Below are positions 5,909-58,331 of a stretch of DNA of 64,000 bases, in pieces. How positions within the stretch are numbered: the stretch's first letter is position 1; each line of letters opens with the position of its first letter. The notes under the pieces are model-generated. The model made no database searches. It had not been told where the DNA came from and saw nothing but the letters and a program-made list of their open reading frames with translations. Source of the stretch: Halorubrum sp. 2020YC2 (GTDB lineage: Archaea > Halobacteriota > Halobacteria > Halobacteriales > Haloferacaceae); assembly GCF_018623055.1 (NCBI RefSeq), contig NZ_CP076019.1:1674001-1738000 (forward strand). The letters are read 5' to 3'. Made by a program: the position numbers and the translations under genes.

Positions 5909-7288
5909 TCAGGCGTAGCCCAGCTCTTCCAGCCGCTCGCGGATCGCCGGATCGACCGAGGTCGTCCCGTCACCGTCGCGGTTGTCGGGAACGGCCTCGC
6001 GGCGCGCGGCCACCTCCTCTCGCGGGGCCTCGAACGGCGACGCGCCGGTCTCGATCCACCCCTCGTCGCTCTGGAAACCGTAGTAGCCGTCCGCCACCAG
6101 CCCCCGGTACTCGACGTCGACGGCGTCGATCGCGTCGGGCGCGTAGCCGCGTTCGCAGAGCGCCTCGCGACGCATCGACGCGATGCCGTTGTACTCGGTG
6201 AGGTACGTCGCCCCGCGCTCGTCGTCGGCCGCTCGGAGGTCGCGGCCGCGGCGGTCAGGCTCGGTGCCGTCGGCAAGCGCCAGCACAGTGTGGTAGACGT
6301 CGAGCAGCGAGACCGGGGCGTCCACGCGCTCGTCGGAAAAGTCCGGGCCGGTGACGACCAGCGGGACGTTCGTCACTTCGGGGTAGAGGCCGTACCCGTG
6401 CTCCCAGACCCCGTGTTCACCGAACAGCTCGCCGTGGTCACCGAGGGTGACGACGTAGTCGAACCGCGCCGACAGCGCCTCGAACGCGTCGCGGTAGACG
6501 TCGCTCAGATATCGCACGCAGTCCTCGTACGCGGCCCGCGCTCGGTCCGGGTCCGGCCCCGCGTGCTCGCGGTCGACTCCCTCCGCCAGCGCCTCGTCGG
6601 GGTCGTCGAACCGGTTGCGAAGCGTCGTTTCGAACGCCGGGCCGAGGTCGTACGGATCACCCGACCGATACGACGCCGGGGGGCGGTACGGCTGGTGTGC
6701 CTCCATGAGGTTCGCGAACAGGAACGTCGGCTCCGAGGGCGACAGCGACCGTGCCAAGTCGCGGAACCGACCGGCGCCGTCGTCGTCGTCGCCCAGCGGG
6801 GTCCCAGCGACCGCTTCCGCGAGGCCGAACCGGAGCGATCGCCCGGTGTCGTAGTCGCCGCGCAGCGCCGCGGCCGCGCCCGTCAGGTACGCCAGTCGCG
6901 GGTGTTCGTGTTCCTCCAGGTGTCGATACCAGTTGAACACCGACGCCGTCGGGTACTCGATGTCGCGAGTCCCGTCGAACTCGTCGAAGCCGCGGTCGTA
7001 CCCGTACGCGGGCGAGATGTTAATATTCGCCGAGAAGGCGCGCGTCCGGTACCCCGCCGCCGAGAGCTGTTCGGCGAGGGTCCGCTCGGACGTCGAGAGT
7101 GACCAGTCGGCGACCGTCACGTCCGCCTCGCTTGGGTACATACCGGTGAACAGGGAGGCGTGCGCGCCGCCCGTCCAGTGGCTCGTTGAGTACGCGGCGT
7201 CGAACCACGTGCCCGGGAGCCACTCGAACGCCTCCTCGAACGCGTCCGCCCGGACGGTATCCAGCACTACGACCGCGATGTTCGTCAC
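5909..7288 (-). CDS. Sulfatase-fold (alkaline phosphatase superfamily) enzyme
   Basis: A 459-residue protein of the sulfatase/alkaline-phosphatase superfamily. Metal-binding Asp appears in VVLDTVRAD (D10), the nucleophile region is HWTGGAHASLFTG (T39, H43), and the second metal motif is TLGDHGELFGEHG. Where sulfatases have Cys/Ser of the formylglycine motif (C/S-x-P-x-R), this protein has Thr, and Pro and Arg are replaced by Gly and His. It is therefore more likely a phosphotransferase, phosphodiesterase or phosphonate-type hydrolase than a true sulfatase. TATATAT at 7314-7320 is 27 bp before the start. No signal peptide; probably cytoplasmic. It is divergent from the pterin operon. Confidence 0.85.
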   Translation of the reverse strand: MTNIAVVVLDTVRADAFEEAFEWLPGTWFDAAYSTSHWTGGAHASLFTGMYPSEADVTVADWSLSTSERTLAEQLSAAGYRTRAFSANINISPAYGYDRGFDEFDGTRDIEYPTASVFNWYRHLEEHEHPRLAYLTGAAAALRGDYDTGRSLRFGLAEAVAGTPLGDDDDGAGRFRDLARSLSPSEPTFLFANLMEAHQPYRPPASYRSGDPYDLGPAFETTLRNRFDDPDEALAEGVDREHAGPDPDRARAAYEDCVRYLSDVYRDAFEALSARFDYVVTLGDHGELFGEHGVWEHGYGLYPEVTNVPLVVTGPDFSDERVDAPVSLLDVYHTVLALADGTEPDRRGRDLRAADDERGATYLTEYNGIASMRREALCERGYAPDAIDAVDVEYRGLVADGYYGFQSDEGWIETGASPFEAPREEVAARREAVPDNRDGDGTTSVDPAIRERLEELGYA

Positions 7289-7442
7289 GTTTGCGTGTTC
7301 AGGCTGGCGCGGATATATATGCCACGTCGGTCCGTGCCGGCGTTCCGGCCGGCGCGCGAGAGAGACGTGTCGACTGCCAGCGATACCGATCCAACATATA
7401 GGGGTACGTTTTATTTAATTCGGTGTCTTATAACGGTTAGTA

Positions 7443-8234
7443 GTGACAAATACCAGAGACACCGTTCGTATCTCCGTCGTTCAACTCGACGAGTACGGGC
7501 CCTGGACGGTCGAACCGTCACCGCGACGGGAAACGGACTTACAGGCGCTCCAAGCGCGTCTGTACGCCGACTTCGCCGACTTCGTCGGCCGCAGCGACGG
7601 CTACGCGTTCTTCAACCGCTTCGACAACATGCTCGGCATCGCCAACGGCATCGATGTCGCGGAGTACGAGCGGTTCCAAGAACGCGTCCGCAACCGATAC
7701 CCGATCACCGTCAGTATCGGCGTCGGAGAGGGGAAAACGCCGGTCCGCGCGGTGGAAGTGGCGAGCCAGCAGCTCCAAGACGCGGGGAGCGCGCAGGACC
7801 CCGACCGGCGGGAGGTCCTCAGCGCCGGGGACACGAGCGGCTCGTCCGGTCACGTCACCATCGCACACTTCGATATCGTCGGCGTGACCGAGTCGTTTAC
7901 CGACACGGAACACGCCGCGACGGCCGGACTCGCGATCCAGCGGTCGATGCTCGCGCTCAAGCAGCGGCTCCTCTCCGAACACGACAGCATCGCCCAGTTC
8001 GTCGGCGGAGACAACATGATCGCCGTCTGTCCGCAGTTGAGCGAGGACGCGTTCGGCGACGTCGTCGACCACGTGTACGACCAGACCGGCATCGAGTACC
8101 AGGTCGGCATCGGCTCGGGACCGACGGCCCACGGCGCGGGCGACCGGGCGAAGGAGGCGCTCGAACACTGCCGGGAGACCGGGACGAGAGTCCACGAAGC
8201 CACGACGATACAGCAGCAGGCGACGGATGACTGA
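7443..8234 (+). CDS. gch3: GTP cyclohydrolase III (GTP cyclohydrolase IIa)
   Basis: A 263-residue homologue of archaeal GCH III (MJ0145/ArfA type), which opens GTP to the formamidopyrimidine FAPy, first step of archaeal riboflavin and F420 synthesis. Family signatures are FFNRFDNMLGIANG near residue 57, ITVSIGVGEGKTPVRAVEVA near 95, and FVGGDNMIAVCP near 184, the two half-domains of the nucleotidyl-cyclase-like fold. GTG at 7443 is 27 bp after an AT-rich TATA element (TTTTATTTAATT, 7410-7421). It overlaps the dehydrogenase gene by 8 bp, so its product probably feeds the downstream enzymes rather than, or as well as, flavin synthesis. Confidence 0.92.
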   Translation: MTNTRDTVRISVVQLDEYGPWTVEPSPRRETDLQALQARLYADFADFVGRSDGYAFFNRFDNMLGIANGIDVAEYERFQERVRNRYPITVSIGVGEGKTPVRAVEVASQQLQDAGSAQDPDRREVLSAGDTSGSSGHVTIAHFDIVGVTESFTDTEHAATAGLAIQRSMLALKQRLLSEHDSIAQFVGGDNMIAVCPQLSEDAFGDVVDHVYDQTGIEYQVGIGSGPTAHGAGDRAKEALEHCRETGTRVHEATTIQQQATDD

Positions 8235-9234
8235 ACGGGCGCTCGTGTTCACCGACGAACGGGAGGTCACCGTCGAGGAGACTGAGGCGACCGACCCGGG
8301 CGCGAACGAGGTGACGGTCGACGCCCACCTCTCGGCCATCAGCTCGGGGACGGAGCTGCTGGTCTACCGCGGTCAGGCACCGTCGGGTATCGCGGCCGAC
8401 TCGTCGTTGGAGACGCTGAACGGCGATCTCTCGTTCCCGCTCCAGTACGGCTACGCGTTGGTCGGCACCGTCGTCGACGCCGGAGGGAACGTCGACGACG
8501 CGTGGGTGGACCGAGAGGTGATCGCCTTCCACCCCCATCAGACGCGGTTCACCTCCACGACGGACTGTCTGACTCCCCTACCGCCGGATATCGAACGGCG
8601 AGCGGGCGCCCTGTTCCCGTCGGCCGAGACGGCGACGAACTTCCTGCTCGACGGCGCACCGAAGCTCGGCGAACGGGTGGTCGTGTTCGGCGCCGGCGTC
8701 ATCGGCCTCTGCACGATCCGCCTGCTCGCAGAGTTCCCGCTCGACTCGCTGGTCGTCGTCGAACCGCGGGCCTCGCGGCGCGACTTGGCCCGGGAGTTCG
8801 GCGCCGACGAGGCGGTCCCGCCGGCCGACGTCGACGCCCTGTTCGAGTCCGTCGGCGACGGTCACGCGGACCTCGTGTACGAGCTCTCGGGACGACCGGA
8901 CACGCTCAACGACGCGATAGACGTCGTCGGGTACGACGGCCGGATCGTCGTCGGATCGTGGTACGGGTCCAAGCGGTCGGATCTCCAGCTCGGGGGGTCG
9001 TTCCACCGCGACCGCGTCGACCTCATCTCGAGCCAGGTGAGCACGATCGACCCGTCGCTGCGCGGTCGGTGGTCGAAGGACCGCCGCACGGATACCGCGC
9101 TCGACGCTCTGCGAACGATCGACCACGAGGCGCTGATCACCGACGTGATCCCCTTCGAGCGGGCCGGAGACGCCTACGAACGACTCGACGAGGCGCCCGA
9201 TGGAACGATTCAGGTGCTGCTCTCGTACGACTGA
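8227..9234 (+). CDS. Medium-chain dehydrogenase/reductase (zinc-ADH superfamily)
   Basis: 335 residues with an MDR fold: a GroES-like N-terminus (ISSGTELLVYRGQAP near residue 40) and a Rossmann domain (VVFGAGVIGLCTIRLLAEF near 155). The usual catalytic zinc ligands (Cys ... GHE) are not seen, so it may be a zinc-free oxidoreductase like the BchC-type branch that shares the SGTELLVYRG segment. The start ATG overlaps the GCH III stop by 8 bp and the next gene begins 3 bp after its stop, so it is the second gene of a four-gene operon. The substrate is unknown; a pteridine or sugar alcohol is a context guess. Confidence 0.85.
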   Translation: MTERALVFTDEREVTVEETEATDPGANEVTVDAHLSAISSGTELLVYRGQAPSGIAADSSLETLNGDLSFPLQYGYALVGTVVDAGGNVDDAWVDREVIAFHPHQTRFTSTTDCLTPLPPDIERRAGALFPSAETATNFLLDGAPKLGERVVVFGAGVIGLCTIRLLAEFPLDSLVVVEPRASRRDLAREFGADEAVPPADVDALFESVGDGHADLVYELSGRPDTLNDAIDVVGYDGRIVVGSWYGSKRSDLQLGGSFHRDRVDLISSQVSTIDPSLRGRWSKDRRTDTALDALRTIDHEALITDVIPFERAGDAYERLDEAPDGTIQVLLSYD

Positions 9235-9237
9235 CAT

Positions 9238-9654
9238 ATGCCATCCAACAACGACTCTGACACGCCAGACGGAGCGCACAGACTGATGGTCAAACGCGAG
9301 TTCATCGCGCAGCACTTCCTGACGGTCCCCGACCCGGAGCCACCGGAGGGAGACGTTCACAGCCACCGGTTCACCGTGGAGGTAGAGTTCGCCGCCGACT
9401 CGCTGGCCGAGTACGGCTACCTCGTGAACATCAACGAGGTGGAGTCGCTCCTCGACGATATCGAGGGGCGGTACCGCGACGCGCTGCTCAACGATCTGCC
9501 GGAGTTCGAGGGGCTGAACCCGAGTGTCGAGCGCTTTGCCCGCATCGTCTGTGACCGATTCCGCGAGGCCCTCTCGGGTGATAATCCAGACGAGGTCACG
9601 GTCCGCATCTGGGAGGACGACCTCGCGTGGGCGAGCTACCGGACGGCGATATGA
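9238..9654 (+). CDS. 6-pyruvoyltetrahydropterin synthase / QueD family protein
   Basis: 138 residues of the PTPS/QueD tunnelling fold. The three zinc His are present: AQHFL near residue 26 and VHSHRF near 42-44, the family's HGHNY motif. The C-terminal Glu motif IWEDDLAWASY fits the substrate-binding Glu. The catalytic Cys that normally precedes the HGH motif is absent (the segment is VPDPEPPEGDVHSHRF), so the chemistry should differ from classical PTPS and QueD. It lies 3 bp after the dehydrogenase gene and overlaps the methyltransferase start as ATGA. It likely acts on a pteridine derived from the GCH III product. Confidence 0.85.
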   Translation: MPSNNDSDTPDGAHRLMVKREFIAQHFLTVPDPEPPEGDVHSHRFTVEVEFAADSLAEYGYLVNINEVESLLDDIEGRYRDALLNDLPEFEGLNPSVERFARIVCDRFREALSGDNPDEVTVRIWEDDLAWASYRTAI

Positions 9655-10505
9655 ACCACGCGCAGATCCGATACCTGGAGGCCAAACGCAGCGTCGACGA
9701 GCGCTCGCGGTCGCGCAGGGTCGCGGACCGACTGTTCGAGGCCCTGCCGGAGTCGCCGACGGTCGGCGAGGCCGGCGCGGGGACCGGGACGGCGGTCCCG
9801 TGGCTGCTCGAACGGGGGGTGACCGGGGGGTCGTACAGAGGGATCGACCTGTCGCCGACCGTGATCGCCCACGCGAAGCGGACGCAACCGGCGGCGCTCC
9901 GGTACAGAGGGTACGACGTCACCGACACCGAGACCGGCGGCACCGTCGGCGATTTCCGGTTCGGGTTCGAAGTGGGCGACGCGCTCGAAGAGCTCCGGGG
10001 GCACAGCCACGACCTCGTCGTCGCCCAGCAGTTCATGGATCTCGTCCCGCTCGAGTCGGCCGTCGACGCGCTGACGGCGGCGGTCGGCGGGGGCGGCCTC
10101 GTGTACTGCCCGCTGACGTTCGACGGCGTGACGGTCTTTCAGCCGGACCACCCCGCCGACGGCGAGATACAGCGAGCGTATCACGACGCGATCGACGCCG
10201 ACGCCGACCGCGAGACGCGCGCGGGGCGGCACCTCCTCGATGAGTTCCGCAACCGGGCCGGATCGCTGCTCGCCGTCGACGCCTCCGACGCCATCGTACG
10301 GCCCCGAAACGGTGGGTATCCCGCCGACGAGCGCTACTTCATGAGCTGCCTACTGGACTTCGTCGAGGAGTCGGTCCCGCCGGAGGCGACCCCGGCAGTC
10401 GGCGACTGGCTGTCGGCGAGACGTGACCAGCTGGCGGACGGGCGCCTCTCGTACGTCGGACACCGGTACGATTTCCTGTACCGAACGTCGGACGAGGAGA
10501 CGTGA
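9651..10505 (+). CDS. SAM-dependent methyltransferase of the pterin-type operon
   Basis: Start chosen at ATG 9651, overlapping the PTPS stop as ATGA, giving 284 residues. Motif I of class I methyltransferases reads VGEAGAGTGTAVPWLLERG near residue 43, followed by YRGIDLSPTVIAHAK and the acidic HDLVVAQQFMDLVPLESAVDAL motif. The tail CLLDFVEESVPP...SARRDQLADGRLSYVGHRYDF shows no further domain. As last gene of the operon it may methylate the pteridine or a conjugate. This is inference from operon structure; the fold assignment is firm. Confidence 0.85.
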   Translation: MNHAQIRYLEAKRSVDERSRSRRVADRLFEALPESPTVGEAGAGTGTAVPWLLERGVTGGSYRGIDLSPTVIAHAKRTQPAALRYRGYDVTDTETGGTVGDFRFGFEVGDALEELRGHSHDLVVAQQFMDLVPLESAVDALTAAVGGGGLVYCPLTFDGVTVFQPDHPADGEIQRAYHDAIDADADRETRAGRHLLDEFRNRAGSLLAVDASDAIVRPRNGGYPADERYFMSCLLDFVEESVPPEATPAVGDWLSARRDQLADGRLSYVGHRYDFLYRTSDEET

Positions 10506-38534: not shown

Positions 38535-39995
38535 GTGGCAACGCTTCGCAATAAGACTACCAGTAAGGGTGTGATTGTTAGATGGAAGCCATATCCAGAT
38601 CACAATCGCCCAAGCACATATCAGGTCAAAACTAGGGCTGTATCATTTCTTGCGGAACTTGGATTTAGTGTTCCTAATCAAGGGGATGAGGTAGATGTTC
38701 CATGGGACATTTGCCGTCCACTCCGCGTATTAGGTGATCTACATTTCAAATCAGATAGTACTGGAGAAGTAGAGACAGATGATATTGGAGAAATAAACGA
38801 AGATTTTGCTCAAGATCTTTCAGAGTCCCAACGCGAAGATCTTAGACGATATATTGCTACACATGACAATTATCAAAAGCAGAGTTCCACACTCGCTGGT
38901 GAAATATCTTCATTACCAGAAGGCGATGAAGAAAATGATGAGAGTACTGATCTATATAAAAACCAGTTACAGGAGGGGGATCGATTCGTAGCCACAATAG
39001 ATAGAATCAGCAACTCAGGAAATGGCATTGTCAACACAAATGAATCACACATCAATATTGGTCCTGTAAAACCGAATGCTGACGGGACAAAAGTAGGGGT
39101 GGAAATGTATTCTGGTGCTTCTGGTATCTGTATAACGGAAAGCGTTCGAGCCGAGAACTATACTTCGAACTTTTGGAGGGCAAATCGCCATCAGTTCCAC
39201 AAATTTGGAAAAGAGACTATTGACTCGGCGATGTTCTGCGAGGATTGTGGCTCAGTCGCACTGAAATCAGGAGAGAAATGGAAGTGTGGTACCTGTGGTA
39301 GTGAATTCCCACCTGACAACGCCGGTGGTAGTAGTGAAACTATAGACCTCGGTATAGCTGAATCCTCGGACCCGGGAGAAGTAATTGAAGGAGTAGCGGT
39401 TGTGTATGACTCTGAGAATAACTTCTGTTCAAGAAGAGAAAAAAGAATAAAAATCGTAGGAGATCAAGATCTTGGTACGGAGGTTGATGTAGAGATACAA
39501 TCTCGGCGAGATGGTTACGTAGTGGCCAAAGTGGTTGATTTATCCAATGAAAACAAGAATTCACCTCCAGAGGATACCACGACACAGAAATCTCTTGATG
39601 AACTAAGGAAAGAAGCTGAAGAAGCGGCTACTGATAACGTTTCAGCCACCGTAAGTAAATCGAGTTCTACGACAACTCGTTATTCACGGTCACAAGAAAT
39701 CAAGGATTATGTAAAAGCTCGTGCTGATGGTGTCTGCGAGGGTTGTAATGAACCAGCGCCATTCACCGACAAAAGCGGCGATCCATATCTCCAAGTTCAC
39801 CACATCCACGAACTAAGTGATGGAGGTTCTGACGCACCAGAGAATGTAGTAGCACTTTGCCCAAACTGTCACTATAGGGTTCATCACGGACAGGATGGTG
39901 AGAGTTATAACCAAGAATTGTCGTCTGAATCTGATGAGCAGAATAATGATGGGGGTTTGTCCTCCTTACTTGAGGAAATATCTGAAAGCAATTAG
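38535..39995 (+). CDS. TRAM / zinc-ribbon / HNH endonuclease
   Basis: 486 residues starting GTG 38535 (MATLRNKTTSKGVIVRW). An N-terminal stretch of unknown fold is followed by a TRAM-like OB domain (GDRFVATIDRISNSGNGIV...SGASGIC, about residues 145-205), a zinc ribbon (CEDCG...CGTCG, about 233-257), a possible second TRAM-like repeat (GEVIEGVAVVYDSENNFC, about 275-330), and a C-terminal HNH nuclease: CEGCNEPAPF...LQVHHIHELSDGGSD...NVVALCPNCHYRVHHG (about 400-455). HNH plus RNA/DNA-binding modules suggests a restriction factor of the type IV or solitary kind. It is AT-rich compared with the chromosome and sits between two restriction loci. Confidence 0.82.
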   Translation: MATLRNKTTSKGVIVRWKPYPDHNRPSTYQVKTRAVSFLAELGFSVPNQGDEVDVPWDICRPLRVLGDLHFKSDSTGEVETDDIGEINEDFAQDLSESQREDLRRYIATHDNYQKQSSTLAGEISSLPEGDEENDESTDLYKNQLQEGDRFVATIDRISNSGNGIVNTNESHINIGPVKPNADGTKVGVEMYSGASGICITESVRAENYTSNFWRANRHQFHKFGKETIDSAMFCEDCGSVALKSGEKWKCGTCGSEFPPDNAGGSSETIDLGIAESSDPGEVIEGVAVVYDSENNFCSRREKRIKIVGDQDLGTEVDVEIQSRRDGYVVAKVVDLSNENKNSPPEDTTTQKSLDELRKEAEEAATDNVSATVSKSSSTTTRYSRSQEIKDYVKARADGVCEGCNEPAPFTDKSGDPYLQVHHIHELSDGGSDAPENVVALCPNCHYRVHHGQDGESYNQELSSESDEQNNDGGLSSLLEEISESN

Positions 39996-56930: not shown

Positions 56931-58037
56931 CTATCCCATCCGATTCAACGCGTCCCGTCGATCTTCTACCGGCGCCTGATCGTATCGCATGGTCGTCTGA
57001 GCGCTCTTATGTCTGAGTTGGGCCTGTGCCGCTCCCAAATCTTCTTCTCGGGCCATATAGGTTGCCGTCGAGTGACGGATCGAATAGAACGTGCGGCCTT
57101 CAGAGGGAATACACGCAGTCTCGCAGACTTGTCGAAACAGACGGTTCAGAGAGTAGTACTTGTACGGATTCCCCGATCGATTGAGCCACAGAGAATCCGA
57201 ATCCAGATACTTGTCGTATTGCTGTCTCTCGGTGAGCCATCTATCCAGCGCGTTCGCAGTACGATCCGTGAGAGAGACGGTCCAATTATCCGTGTTCTTT
57301 GACGAATCCTCTTTAGGAATCCGCAAGAGGGAGTTCCTAACGTCTACCCATCCGACTTTTGCTCGTTTCACCTCTACCGGGCGCAAACCAGTATCGAGTG
57401 CGGTCCAGAACAAGCTCGGGATCTTCCACGAGTTGGCCTGTTTGAATTCGTCGGGGCCGACGTCCCTCTTAGGCTTCTCAAAGCGCTGTGCGAGGTGTAT
57501 CTTCCATCGGTCGCGCTGTTCGGGTGTGAGGTTGTTGTAGCTCGGAACGCTCCCGTGTTCCAGCACGGCCTCTCTGACGGCACTCCGCTCTTCGCGGGTG
57601 AGGAAGTCCTTGGGATTCGTGTTCCCGGTGTTCGTGGAGAACGTGATTTCTGGTTCCCACTCTTCCCCGTCAAGCGTGTGCGTACGCCAGCGGAACAGCA
57701 TTTTGACCGCTTTCAGGTGGCTTGCCTTGTTCTCCTGAGAGGTCTCTCCGTAGGCAAGCTTCCTCATGTAGGCGTCTGCGTGGTCGTGTGTGATCTCGGT
57801 AGTATAGCGGTCTTCTTCGTCCCAAACGAACCGGTAGAAGGCGTCAAGACGATATGCTCGTCCGTTCGCAGTATCGTAGGCGTATCCGTCTCCGTGGTCG
57901 GGATCTTTCCCGATGTTTACCATCCATCCGATGAGGCGTTCTCGGTGTTCTCGGTAGTCGGTCAACTGACGTTGTGACAGGTACTCTTCGGACGGTTTTG
58001 GAACCACCCGGATACCCGCCTTTTTGACTTGAGACAT
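56931..58037 (-). CDS. int: Tyrosine-family integrase of the element
   Basis: 368 residues from ATG 58037 (MSQVKKAGIRVVPKPSEEYL). A SAM-like N-terminal domain (to about 130) precedes the catalytic domain with R219 (DTGLRPVEVKRAK), R321 (FYSIRHSTATYMA), H343 (QLRHKSAQTTMRYDQ) and the nucleophile Y352. The His of the HxxR box is Tyr here (Y318), seen in some archaeal recombinases. It starts 54 bp from the tRNA-His end and reads away from the tRNA, the usual layout of an integrase beside its attachment site. Confidence 0.93.
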   Translation of the reverse strand: MSQVKKAGIRVVPKPSEEYLSQRQLTDYREHRERLIGWMVNIGKDPDHGDGYAYDTANGRAYRLDAFYRFVWDEEDRYTTEITHDHADAYMRKLAYGETSQENKASHLKAVKMLFRWRTHTLDGEEWEPEITFSTNTGNTNPKDFLTREERSAVREAVLEHGSVPSYNNLTPEQRDRWKIHLAQRFEKPKRDVGPDEFKQANSWKIPSLFWTALDTGLRPVEVKRAKVGWVDVRNSLLRIPKEDSSKNTDNWTVSLTDRTANALDRWLTERQQYDKYLDSDSLWLNRSGNPYKYYSLNRLFRQVCETACIPSEGRTFYSIRHSTATYMAREEDLGAAQAQLRHKSAQTTMRYDQAPVEDRRDALNRMG

Positions 58038-58090
58038 ATGGTTCTCGTTGTGTTGAGAACCGGTGAAAACGCAACACGGCTCCGCCGTGT

Positions 58091-58134
58091 AGGTCCGGGT
58101 GCGAGAATCGAACCCGCGTCTCAGCCTCCACAAG
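58091..58134 (-). repeat. Right attachment site within tRNA-His
   Basis: 44 bp identical to 37132-37175; spans the acceptor 3' strand, T arm, variable region and 3' side of the anticodon arm. Recombination between both copies would release a 21-kb circle and leave one intact tRNA gene. Confidence 0.92.
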
Positions 58135-58166
58135 GCTGAAGGATAGTCCACTACCCTAACCCGGAC
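58092..58166 (-). tRNA. tRNA-His (GTG)
   Basis: On the minus strand, acceptor GTCCGGG pairs with CCCGGAC and C73 follows, as in archaeal tRNA-His. The anticodon arm CAGCC-TTGTGGA-GGCTG gives GTG; the T arm is CGCGGGTTCGATTCTCGCA-like. No intron and no encoded CCA. The gene stayed intact after integration because the element supplied an identical 3' half. Confidence 0.93.
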
Positions 58167-58331
58167 ACGCGTCGTCAAGTACCCCGCTTCGATAAATAAC
58201 GGTTACGACTCCCGGACGGGCGTGGCACCGAGTGGCGCCCGAATCGGATCGAGGAGTTCGGACCGGGCACCGCTTGATTCCTCGATCACCGCGTCGCTTT
58301 TGAGGGTCGCGGGCGTATTGAGGGGTAACTC

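Follow-up and report, generated by a model that had tools for sequence, protein, structure and literature searches.

A haloarchaeal GTP cyclohydrolase III operon belongs to a dispensable gene module that may divert a riboflavin-type pyrimidine

What is a GTP cyclohydrolase III (GCH III) doing in one operon with a homologue of PTPS? The question is raised by a 64,000-nucleotide stretch of the 3.06-Mb chromosome of the haloarchaeon Halorubrum sp. 2020YC2 (NZ_CP076019.1; G000:C1:1674001-1738000 in the coordinates used here), hereafter the window, where four plus-strand genes encode, in this order, GCH III, a dehydrogenase (ADH), a PTPS homologue and a methyltransferase (MT). Enzymes of the GCH III family open GTP to a formylamino-pyrimidine nucleotide, and the original prediction, made from the DNA alone, saw a paradox here, as PTPS acts on dihydroneopterin triphosphate, which GCH III does not make. 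We hold with moderate confidence that this operon represents an incomplete second copy of a module by which an early riboflavin-type pyrimidine is diverted into another product, probably one linked to a lipid or a sugar.

The four-gene operon is real, as reading the sequence confirmed the tight packing described before: GCH III and ADH overlap by 8 bp (8227-8234), ADH and PTPS are separated by 3 bp (9235-9237), PTPS and MT share an ATGA overlap (9651-9654), and all four frames are intact. The GCH III gene (7443..8234, +) starts with GTG and is one of two copies in the genome. ADH (8227..9234, +; PF00107, 1e-13; alignment of 13) is a zinc-less, BchC-like medium-chain dehydrogenase and a conserved partner of PTPS, which is itself a COG0720, T-fold protein with the motif ExxxHSH (9238..9654, +; PF01242, 2e-26). 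The SAM-dependent methyltransferase starts at the ATG at 9651 (9651..10505, +; Methyltransf_11/12/25, ~1e-5).

Co-occurrence was surveyed across 60 genomes of the same family, in which GCH III is present in 60, ADH in 50, PTPS and MT in 49 each, and a CDP-alcohol transferase in 46. Neither PTPS nor the CDP-alcohol transferase occurs in any of the 10 ADH-negative genomes (0/10 each); nine of these also lack MT, and the tenth has a weak 29% match. The sole other PTPS-negative genome is a 62%-complete assembly. Fisher p values for co-absence with ADH, calculated with phylogeny ignored, are 1e-10, 1e-8 and 4e-8. ADH-negative genomes are spread over seven genera, and four genera (g5, g8, g12 and g16) hold both states, so that several independent joint losses are needed. 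Haloarchaeal relatives have thus lost ADH, PTPS and MT together, as a survey of co-occurrence, proposed with the original prediction, shows, but GCH III, MptA and a CofH homologue are retained in 10/10 ADH-negative genomes. The latter, found in 60/60 genomes, scores below its curated cut-off and is therefore called a homologue only. A Gfo/Idh gene occurs genome-wide in 22/50 ADH-positive and 0/10 ADH-negative genomes.

Gene order tells the same story. At 45 haloarchaeal ADH loci we found PTPS in 41, GT4 in 26, MT, CDP-alcohol transferase and GCH III in 21 each, and Gfo/Idh in 12, while PTPS, GT4, MT, CDP-alcohol transferase and Gfo/Idh occur in 0/10 control GCH III loci from ADH-negative genomes. 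The ADH-PTPS pair is kept beside GCH III in relatives, and conserved partner genes encode GT4, CDP-alcohol phosphotransferase, Gfo/Idh/MocA and DUF7475 proteins; the transferase active-site motif DxxDGxxAR...GxxxDxxxD was recognized by eye in one locus (L027). DUF7475 was rejected as a module marker, being frequent near ADH yet present genome-wide in 4/10 ADH-negatives. Co-loss and linkage rule out a chance grouping of the operon genes. Because ADH-negative genomes lose the partners jointly but keep GCH III, MptA and the CofH homologue, these genes form one dispensable module, distinct from the riboflavin, folate and F420 pathways as such, and neither riboflavin nor F420 is likely to be its sole role.

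The family assignment of the window GCH III is secure by sequence, with a full-length, two-domain match to PF05165 (4e-92; 308 bits versus a cut-off of 21.3) and residues 8-244 matching PDB 2qv6 at 9e-60. It is not the sole GCH III of its genome, as a housekeeping arfA would be: the second copy that the original prediction had suggested looking for exists, is 48% identical and lies at G000:C1:1943938-1944684, next to a HAD phosphatase gene. This bears on the view that the operon serves ordinary riboflavin biosynthesis, with ADH and PTPS supplying early steps that are otherwise missing (PTPS, for example, as the deformylase). Such a view draws on the riboflavin auxotrophy that follows deletion of HVO_1284, the Haloferax volcanii GCH III (PMC8305020), on single GCH III genes often lying directly before ADH-PTPS, with GCH III at 21/45 ADH loci as above, and on the T-fold that PTPS shares with GTP cyclohydrolase I, an enzyme that removes the formyl group by hydrolysis. 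We nevertheless consider it unlikely, given that 10 genomes keep GCH III without ADH and PTPS, some within a single genus, that the bacterial module is accompanied by its own riboflavin-type enzymes, and that this genome has two GCH III genes. Separately, a divergent HAD phosphatase gene stands beside the housekeeping GCH III in many haloarchaea (L024 7754-8674, L032, L033, L036, L038, L041), and beside GCH III in 8/10 ADH-negative control loci; it could account for the missing phosphatase step of riboflavin synthesis, EC 3.1.3.104. HAD, OsmC and MBL genes near single-copy GCH III were rejected as module members; since they also occur in ADH-negative genomes, they are housekeeping neighbours of arfA.

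In a GCH III tree, the window copy forms a clade (support 100, long branches) with the copy of one relative (G005) and two plasmid copies, from plasmids of Haloarcula pelagica and Natrarchaeobaculum, whose GCH III genes adjoin ADH. In G005 the window-type enzyme is the only GCH III found, and the Gfo/Idh and CDP-alcohol genes form a group far from the operon, as they do in the window's genome. Here, a second set at about 177-186 kb, ~1.5 Mb from the operon, comprises MT, GT4, a frameshifted PTPS, Gfo/Idh, DUF7475, CDP-alcohol transferase and ADH. The PTPS of this set carries a one-base shift (L023, about 6741-6786), and mptA, the MptA-type gene sought by the original prediction, is present but split over three frames by frameshifts (L193, G000:C1:2210501-2213500). 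The frameshifts in both genes suggest either assembly indels, which are likely, or real gene decay; with mptA of the same genome frameshifted as well, the second PTPS copy may be either intact or a pseudogene. Alternatively, the window copy could be a spare of the 177-186 kb set, acquired laterally, redundant or in decay, as its grouping with plasmid copies and G005 and the second ADH, MT and PTPS in the genome would allow. Its four intact frames and tight overlaps, set against the frameshifted assembly of the other PTPS, make this about as improbable as the riboflavin explanation; moreover, it bears on the importance of the diversion pathway and does not compete with that reading itself.

Bacterial and other archaeal versions identify the likely precursor. 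PTPS-type genes are common, with at least 579 confirmed relatives in a scan of GTDB genomes, of which the loci of the best 80 were read. Among these are 53 long loci, mostly from Proteobacteria, with ADH and GT4 in 51 each, MT in 50, RibD_C in 27 and RibA in 22. Apart from these genes, proteobacterial versions (L043, L044, L096-L175) nearly always have an MdoH-like membrane glycosyltransferase and often cytochrome b561. The order ADH-PTPS-GT4 followed by MT also occurs on plasmids of Streptomyces, Agrobacterium, Microbacterium, Methylosinus, Neorhizobium and Thiodictyon, the MT slot being filled in some records by an unnamed gene that aligns with MT; RibA, RibD_C and CDP-alcohol transferase are present in several plasmid versions, and a creatininase in Streptomyces. 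In the window GCH III takes the place of RibA, and RibD_C is not beside PTPS; two other archaea of the same phylum have RibA-ADH-PTPS-GT4. GCH III and RibA are unrelated and feed the same pathway, so the cyclohydrolase slot defines the precursor, and the shared precursor is therefore a riboflavin-type 2-amino-4-oxo-pyrimidine, not dihydroneopterin triphosphate. It is probably taken after reduction, because the RibD protein of the Agrobacterium cluster has the reductase domain only. Both Streptomyces RibA copies have Met in a KLRAM/KLQAM motif where others have Tyr, and a creatininase adjoins both; like GCH III, SCO6655, which has Met for Tyr, reportedly makes a formylated product. In bacteria a flippase-like protein and cytochrome b561 stand beside the set and, together with GT4 and the CDP-alcohol transferase, suggest a membrane-linked end product.

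These bacteria also weigh on the possibility that the module serves coenzyme F420. Many of its bacterial carriers, such as Agrobacterium, Methylobacterium and Roseibium, are not known for F420. The CofH homologue is found in all 60 family genomes, including the 10 that lack the module, and no known F420 step requires such enzymes. A role in F420 is improbable on these grounds, even though the pyrimidine precursor is common to F420 and Zallot et al. (2016, PMC5041015) place PTPS-IV in F420 synthesis, citing unpublished data.

The PTPS homologue itself departs from the known classes. An AlphaFold model of the window protein (pLDDT 90) matches PTPS/QueD structures at Z about 11-17, with SCO6650 (PDB 3d7j) as the best solved match (Z 17.2) and QueD at Z 15.3, in agreement with its T-fold and COG0720 membership. 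Among 48 haloarchaeal sequences E37, H43 and H26 are invariant, H41 and D81 are each present in 47/48, and E126 occurs in every sequence that extends that far. Aligned with QueD, E37 falls at the position of the catalytic Cys and D81 at that of the catalytic His, while E126 would be the pterin-binding Glu, in accordance with the roles of these positions in the family. With Glu at the Cys position, the haloarchaeal motif ExxxHSH differs from the CxxxHGH of PTPS-I (QueD), and the PTPS-I equivalog TIGR03367 gives 43.7 bits versus a cut-off of 89.25. It also differs from the ExxHGH of PTPS-III, as the Glu is one residue farther from the first His. The FGPAQ signature of PTPS-IV is confined to bacterial homologues in the compared set, the haloarchaeal proteins having P-GPEG..HSH and the window protein PEPPEGDVHSH. 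The archaeal homologue is thus probably a zinc enzyme that acts on a pterin-like ring but uses other catalytic groups. The paradox is therefore real for a true PTPS only: because the catalytic Cys and His are replaced, dihydroneopterin triphosphate need not be the substrate. PTPS-type genes are annotated in the examined records as queuosine enzymes (6-carboxytetrahydropterin synthase), probably wrongly; a further family member of this genome, at G000:C1:1494793-1495161, is the probable QueD. A PTPS-I/III-type enzyme making a pterin for folate or archaeosine, to which the conserved fold and pterin-binding Glu and the Glu for Cys of PTPS-III (PMC5041015) would lend themselves, is very unlikely, in view of the motif, of the probable QueD and MptA already in this genome, and of a module that is missing from 10 MptA-bearing genomes and travels with lipid and sugar enzymes.

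The family assignment of the PTPS homologue is secure by sequence too. The window ADH matches TIGR01202 at 4e-20, below the cut-off, and has SGTE and YGY at the sites of the catalytic zinc ligands (Cys and the GHE His). YGY replaces the GHE site in 13/13 aligned ADHs, and the Rossmann glycines are retained. The MT is weak by Pfam, yet has clear orthologues, found beside PTPS or GT4 in haloarchaea and recognized by position in bacteria.

With co-location, co-loss, the exchange of GCH III for RibA and the residue changes as observations, we infer the substrate, step order and product of the diversion pathway as follows. GCH III would open GTP to the formylamino-pyrimidine nucleotide, and a deformylase (ArfB or creatininase-like) and a RibD-type reductase would convert it to 2,5-diamino-6-ribitylamino-4-oxopyrimidine 5'-phosphate; these two steps are proposed because RibD_C, RibA and creatininase genes occur in the bacterial versions. 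The zinc-less dehydrogenase would then oxidise a side-chain hydroxyl. Were this the 2'-OH, the ketone would be the Amadori intermediate of GTP cyclohydrolase I and could close on the 5-amino group to give a dihydropterin phosphate (dihydroneopterin phosphate), chemistry that would resolve the apparent conflict between GCH III and PTPS. The PTPS homologue, with its zinc histidines, its pterin-binding Glu and Glu/Asp in place of the QueD Cys/His, might reshape the side chain of this monophosphate, and MT, elsewhere with GT4 and the CDP-alcohol phosphotransferase, would modify the compound further and attach it to a sugar or a lipid alcohol. More speculatively, haloarchaea and bacteria might share a pathway from the diaminopyrimidine to a methylated, glycosylated, lipid-joined pterin or pyrimidine head group, an undescribed membrane redox or signal lipid, with the dehydrogenase providing a pterin route without GTP cyclohydrolase I or MptA; we put this forward tentatively.

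Several points weigh against the diversion pathway. Every enzyme reaction of the module is a prediction, and reducing the sugar merely for reoxidation seems wasteful. GT4 and CDP-alcohol genes are not adjacent to the operon in the window. In G005 the window-type GCH III must also serve riboflavin, because it is the sole GCH III found there, so the enzyme is not reserved strictly for the module. The third zinc His, retained by archaeal PTPS, is missing from the FGPAQ proteins of bacteria (HGA), and bacterial and archaeal PTPS may for this reason be of unlike chemistry. The link between the RibA Met and a deformylase is only suggestive, coming from two Streptomyces loci and what is said of SCO6655, and four proteobacterial creatininase-bearing loci keep Tyr in RibA.

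Upstream of the operon, a TATA-like promoter element, TTTATTTAAT (7410..7419, +), was noted by eye 24-33 nt before the GTG start, and its spacing would fit a leaderless archaeal transcript. The neighbours that the original prediction named as pathway helpers did not hold up: ParB-like and HAD-like genes have 0 matches in 67 related loci, and the divergent alkaline-phosphatase/sulfatase-fold gene (5909..7288, -; PF00884, 1e-24), a doubtful member, recurs at the same position in G005 alone, and all three were rejected as pathway members. What stands of that prediction is a pathway separate from flavin and F420 synthesis that starts at the GCH III pyrimidine; this core is strengthened by the second GCH III, by MptA and by the conserved neighbours, so that neither circumstance named as refuting it applies. 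The sulfatase-fold protein may act as a phosphoesterase or transferase and not as a sulfatase, because Thr (TGGAH) and not Cys/Ser apparently occupies its formylglycine position, as judged by eye. Elsewhere in the window, 37368-58178 is an integrated defence island of low GC (about 44-55% versus 69%). It carries a YgjP-like gene, a type I restriction-modification set (HsdM 40105, HsdS 41603, HsdR 42975) and, at 38535, a type IV-like endonuclease of the HNH kind; its phage-type integrase (56931-58178) overlaps a tRNA-His gene at 58092-58165.

A module of four to seven genes, jointly lost or kept and with unrelated cyclohydrolases in one slot, pins down the probable precursor and makes it possible to search for the product. 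Should that product prove to be a pteridine lipid, membrane molecules would gain a new class and pterins a third route. Literature searches on a pteridine lipid, on the cluster and on its H. volcanii genes led to PMC8305020, PMC5041015 and PMC5445326 only, and the papers found name neither the product nor the haloarchaeal module.

Among known systems, arfA (GCH III, MJ0145/HVO_1284) belongs to the same family as the window GCH III and matches it over the full length; the window enzyme differs as a diverged extra copy grouped with plasmid copies. The Streptomyces relatives of the SCO6650 group share ADH-PTPS-GT4-MT, with CDP-alcohol transferase, creatininase and RibA. SCO6650, the best structural match, is only 26-27% identical, has LHGAT where haloarchaeal proteins have HSH, is accompanied by RibA instead of GCH III, and is reportedly without zinc. 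Toxoflavin-type azapteridine pathways likewise recruit a riboflavin-type cyclohydrolase and reductase with a methyltransferase for a non-flavin product, but without PTPS, dehydrogenase or lipid enzymes. As to PTPS-IV, in the part of the AGeNNT account that concerns them, FGPAQ members have PF00925 (called FolE2 there) and RibD_C neighbours (PMC5445326), matching the FGPAQ, RibA and RibD_C of the bacterial members found here. The haloarchaeal protein differs in having no FGPAQ, in keeping three zinc histidines and in the replacement of RibA by GCH III. Already known, as far as these sources extend, is PTPS-IV beside RibA and RibD_C, attributed (unpublished) to F420; lipid and sugar partners and co-loss are features of the module studied here and not of that part of the AGeNNT account, and what is new is the GCH III/RibA exchange, the joint loss of the genes and their association with lipid and sugar enzymes.

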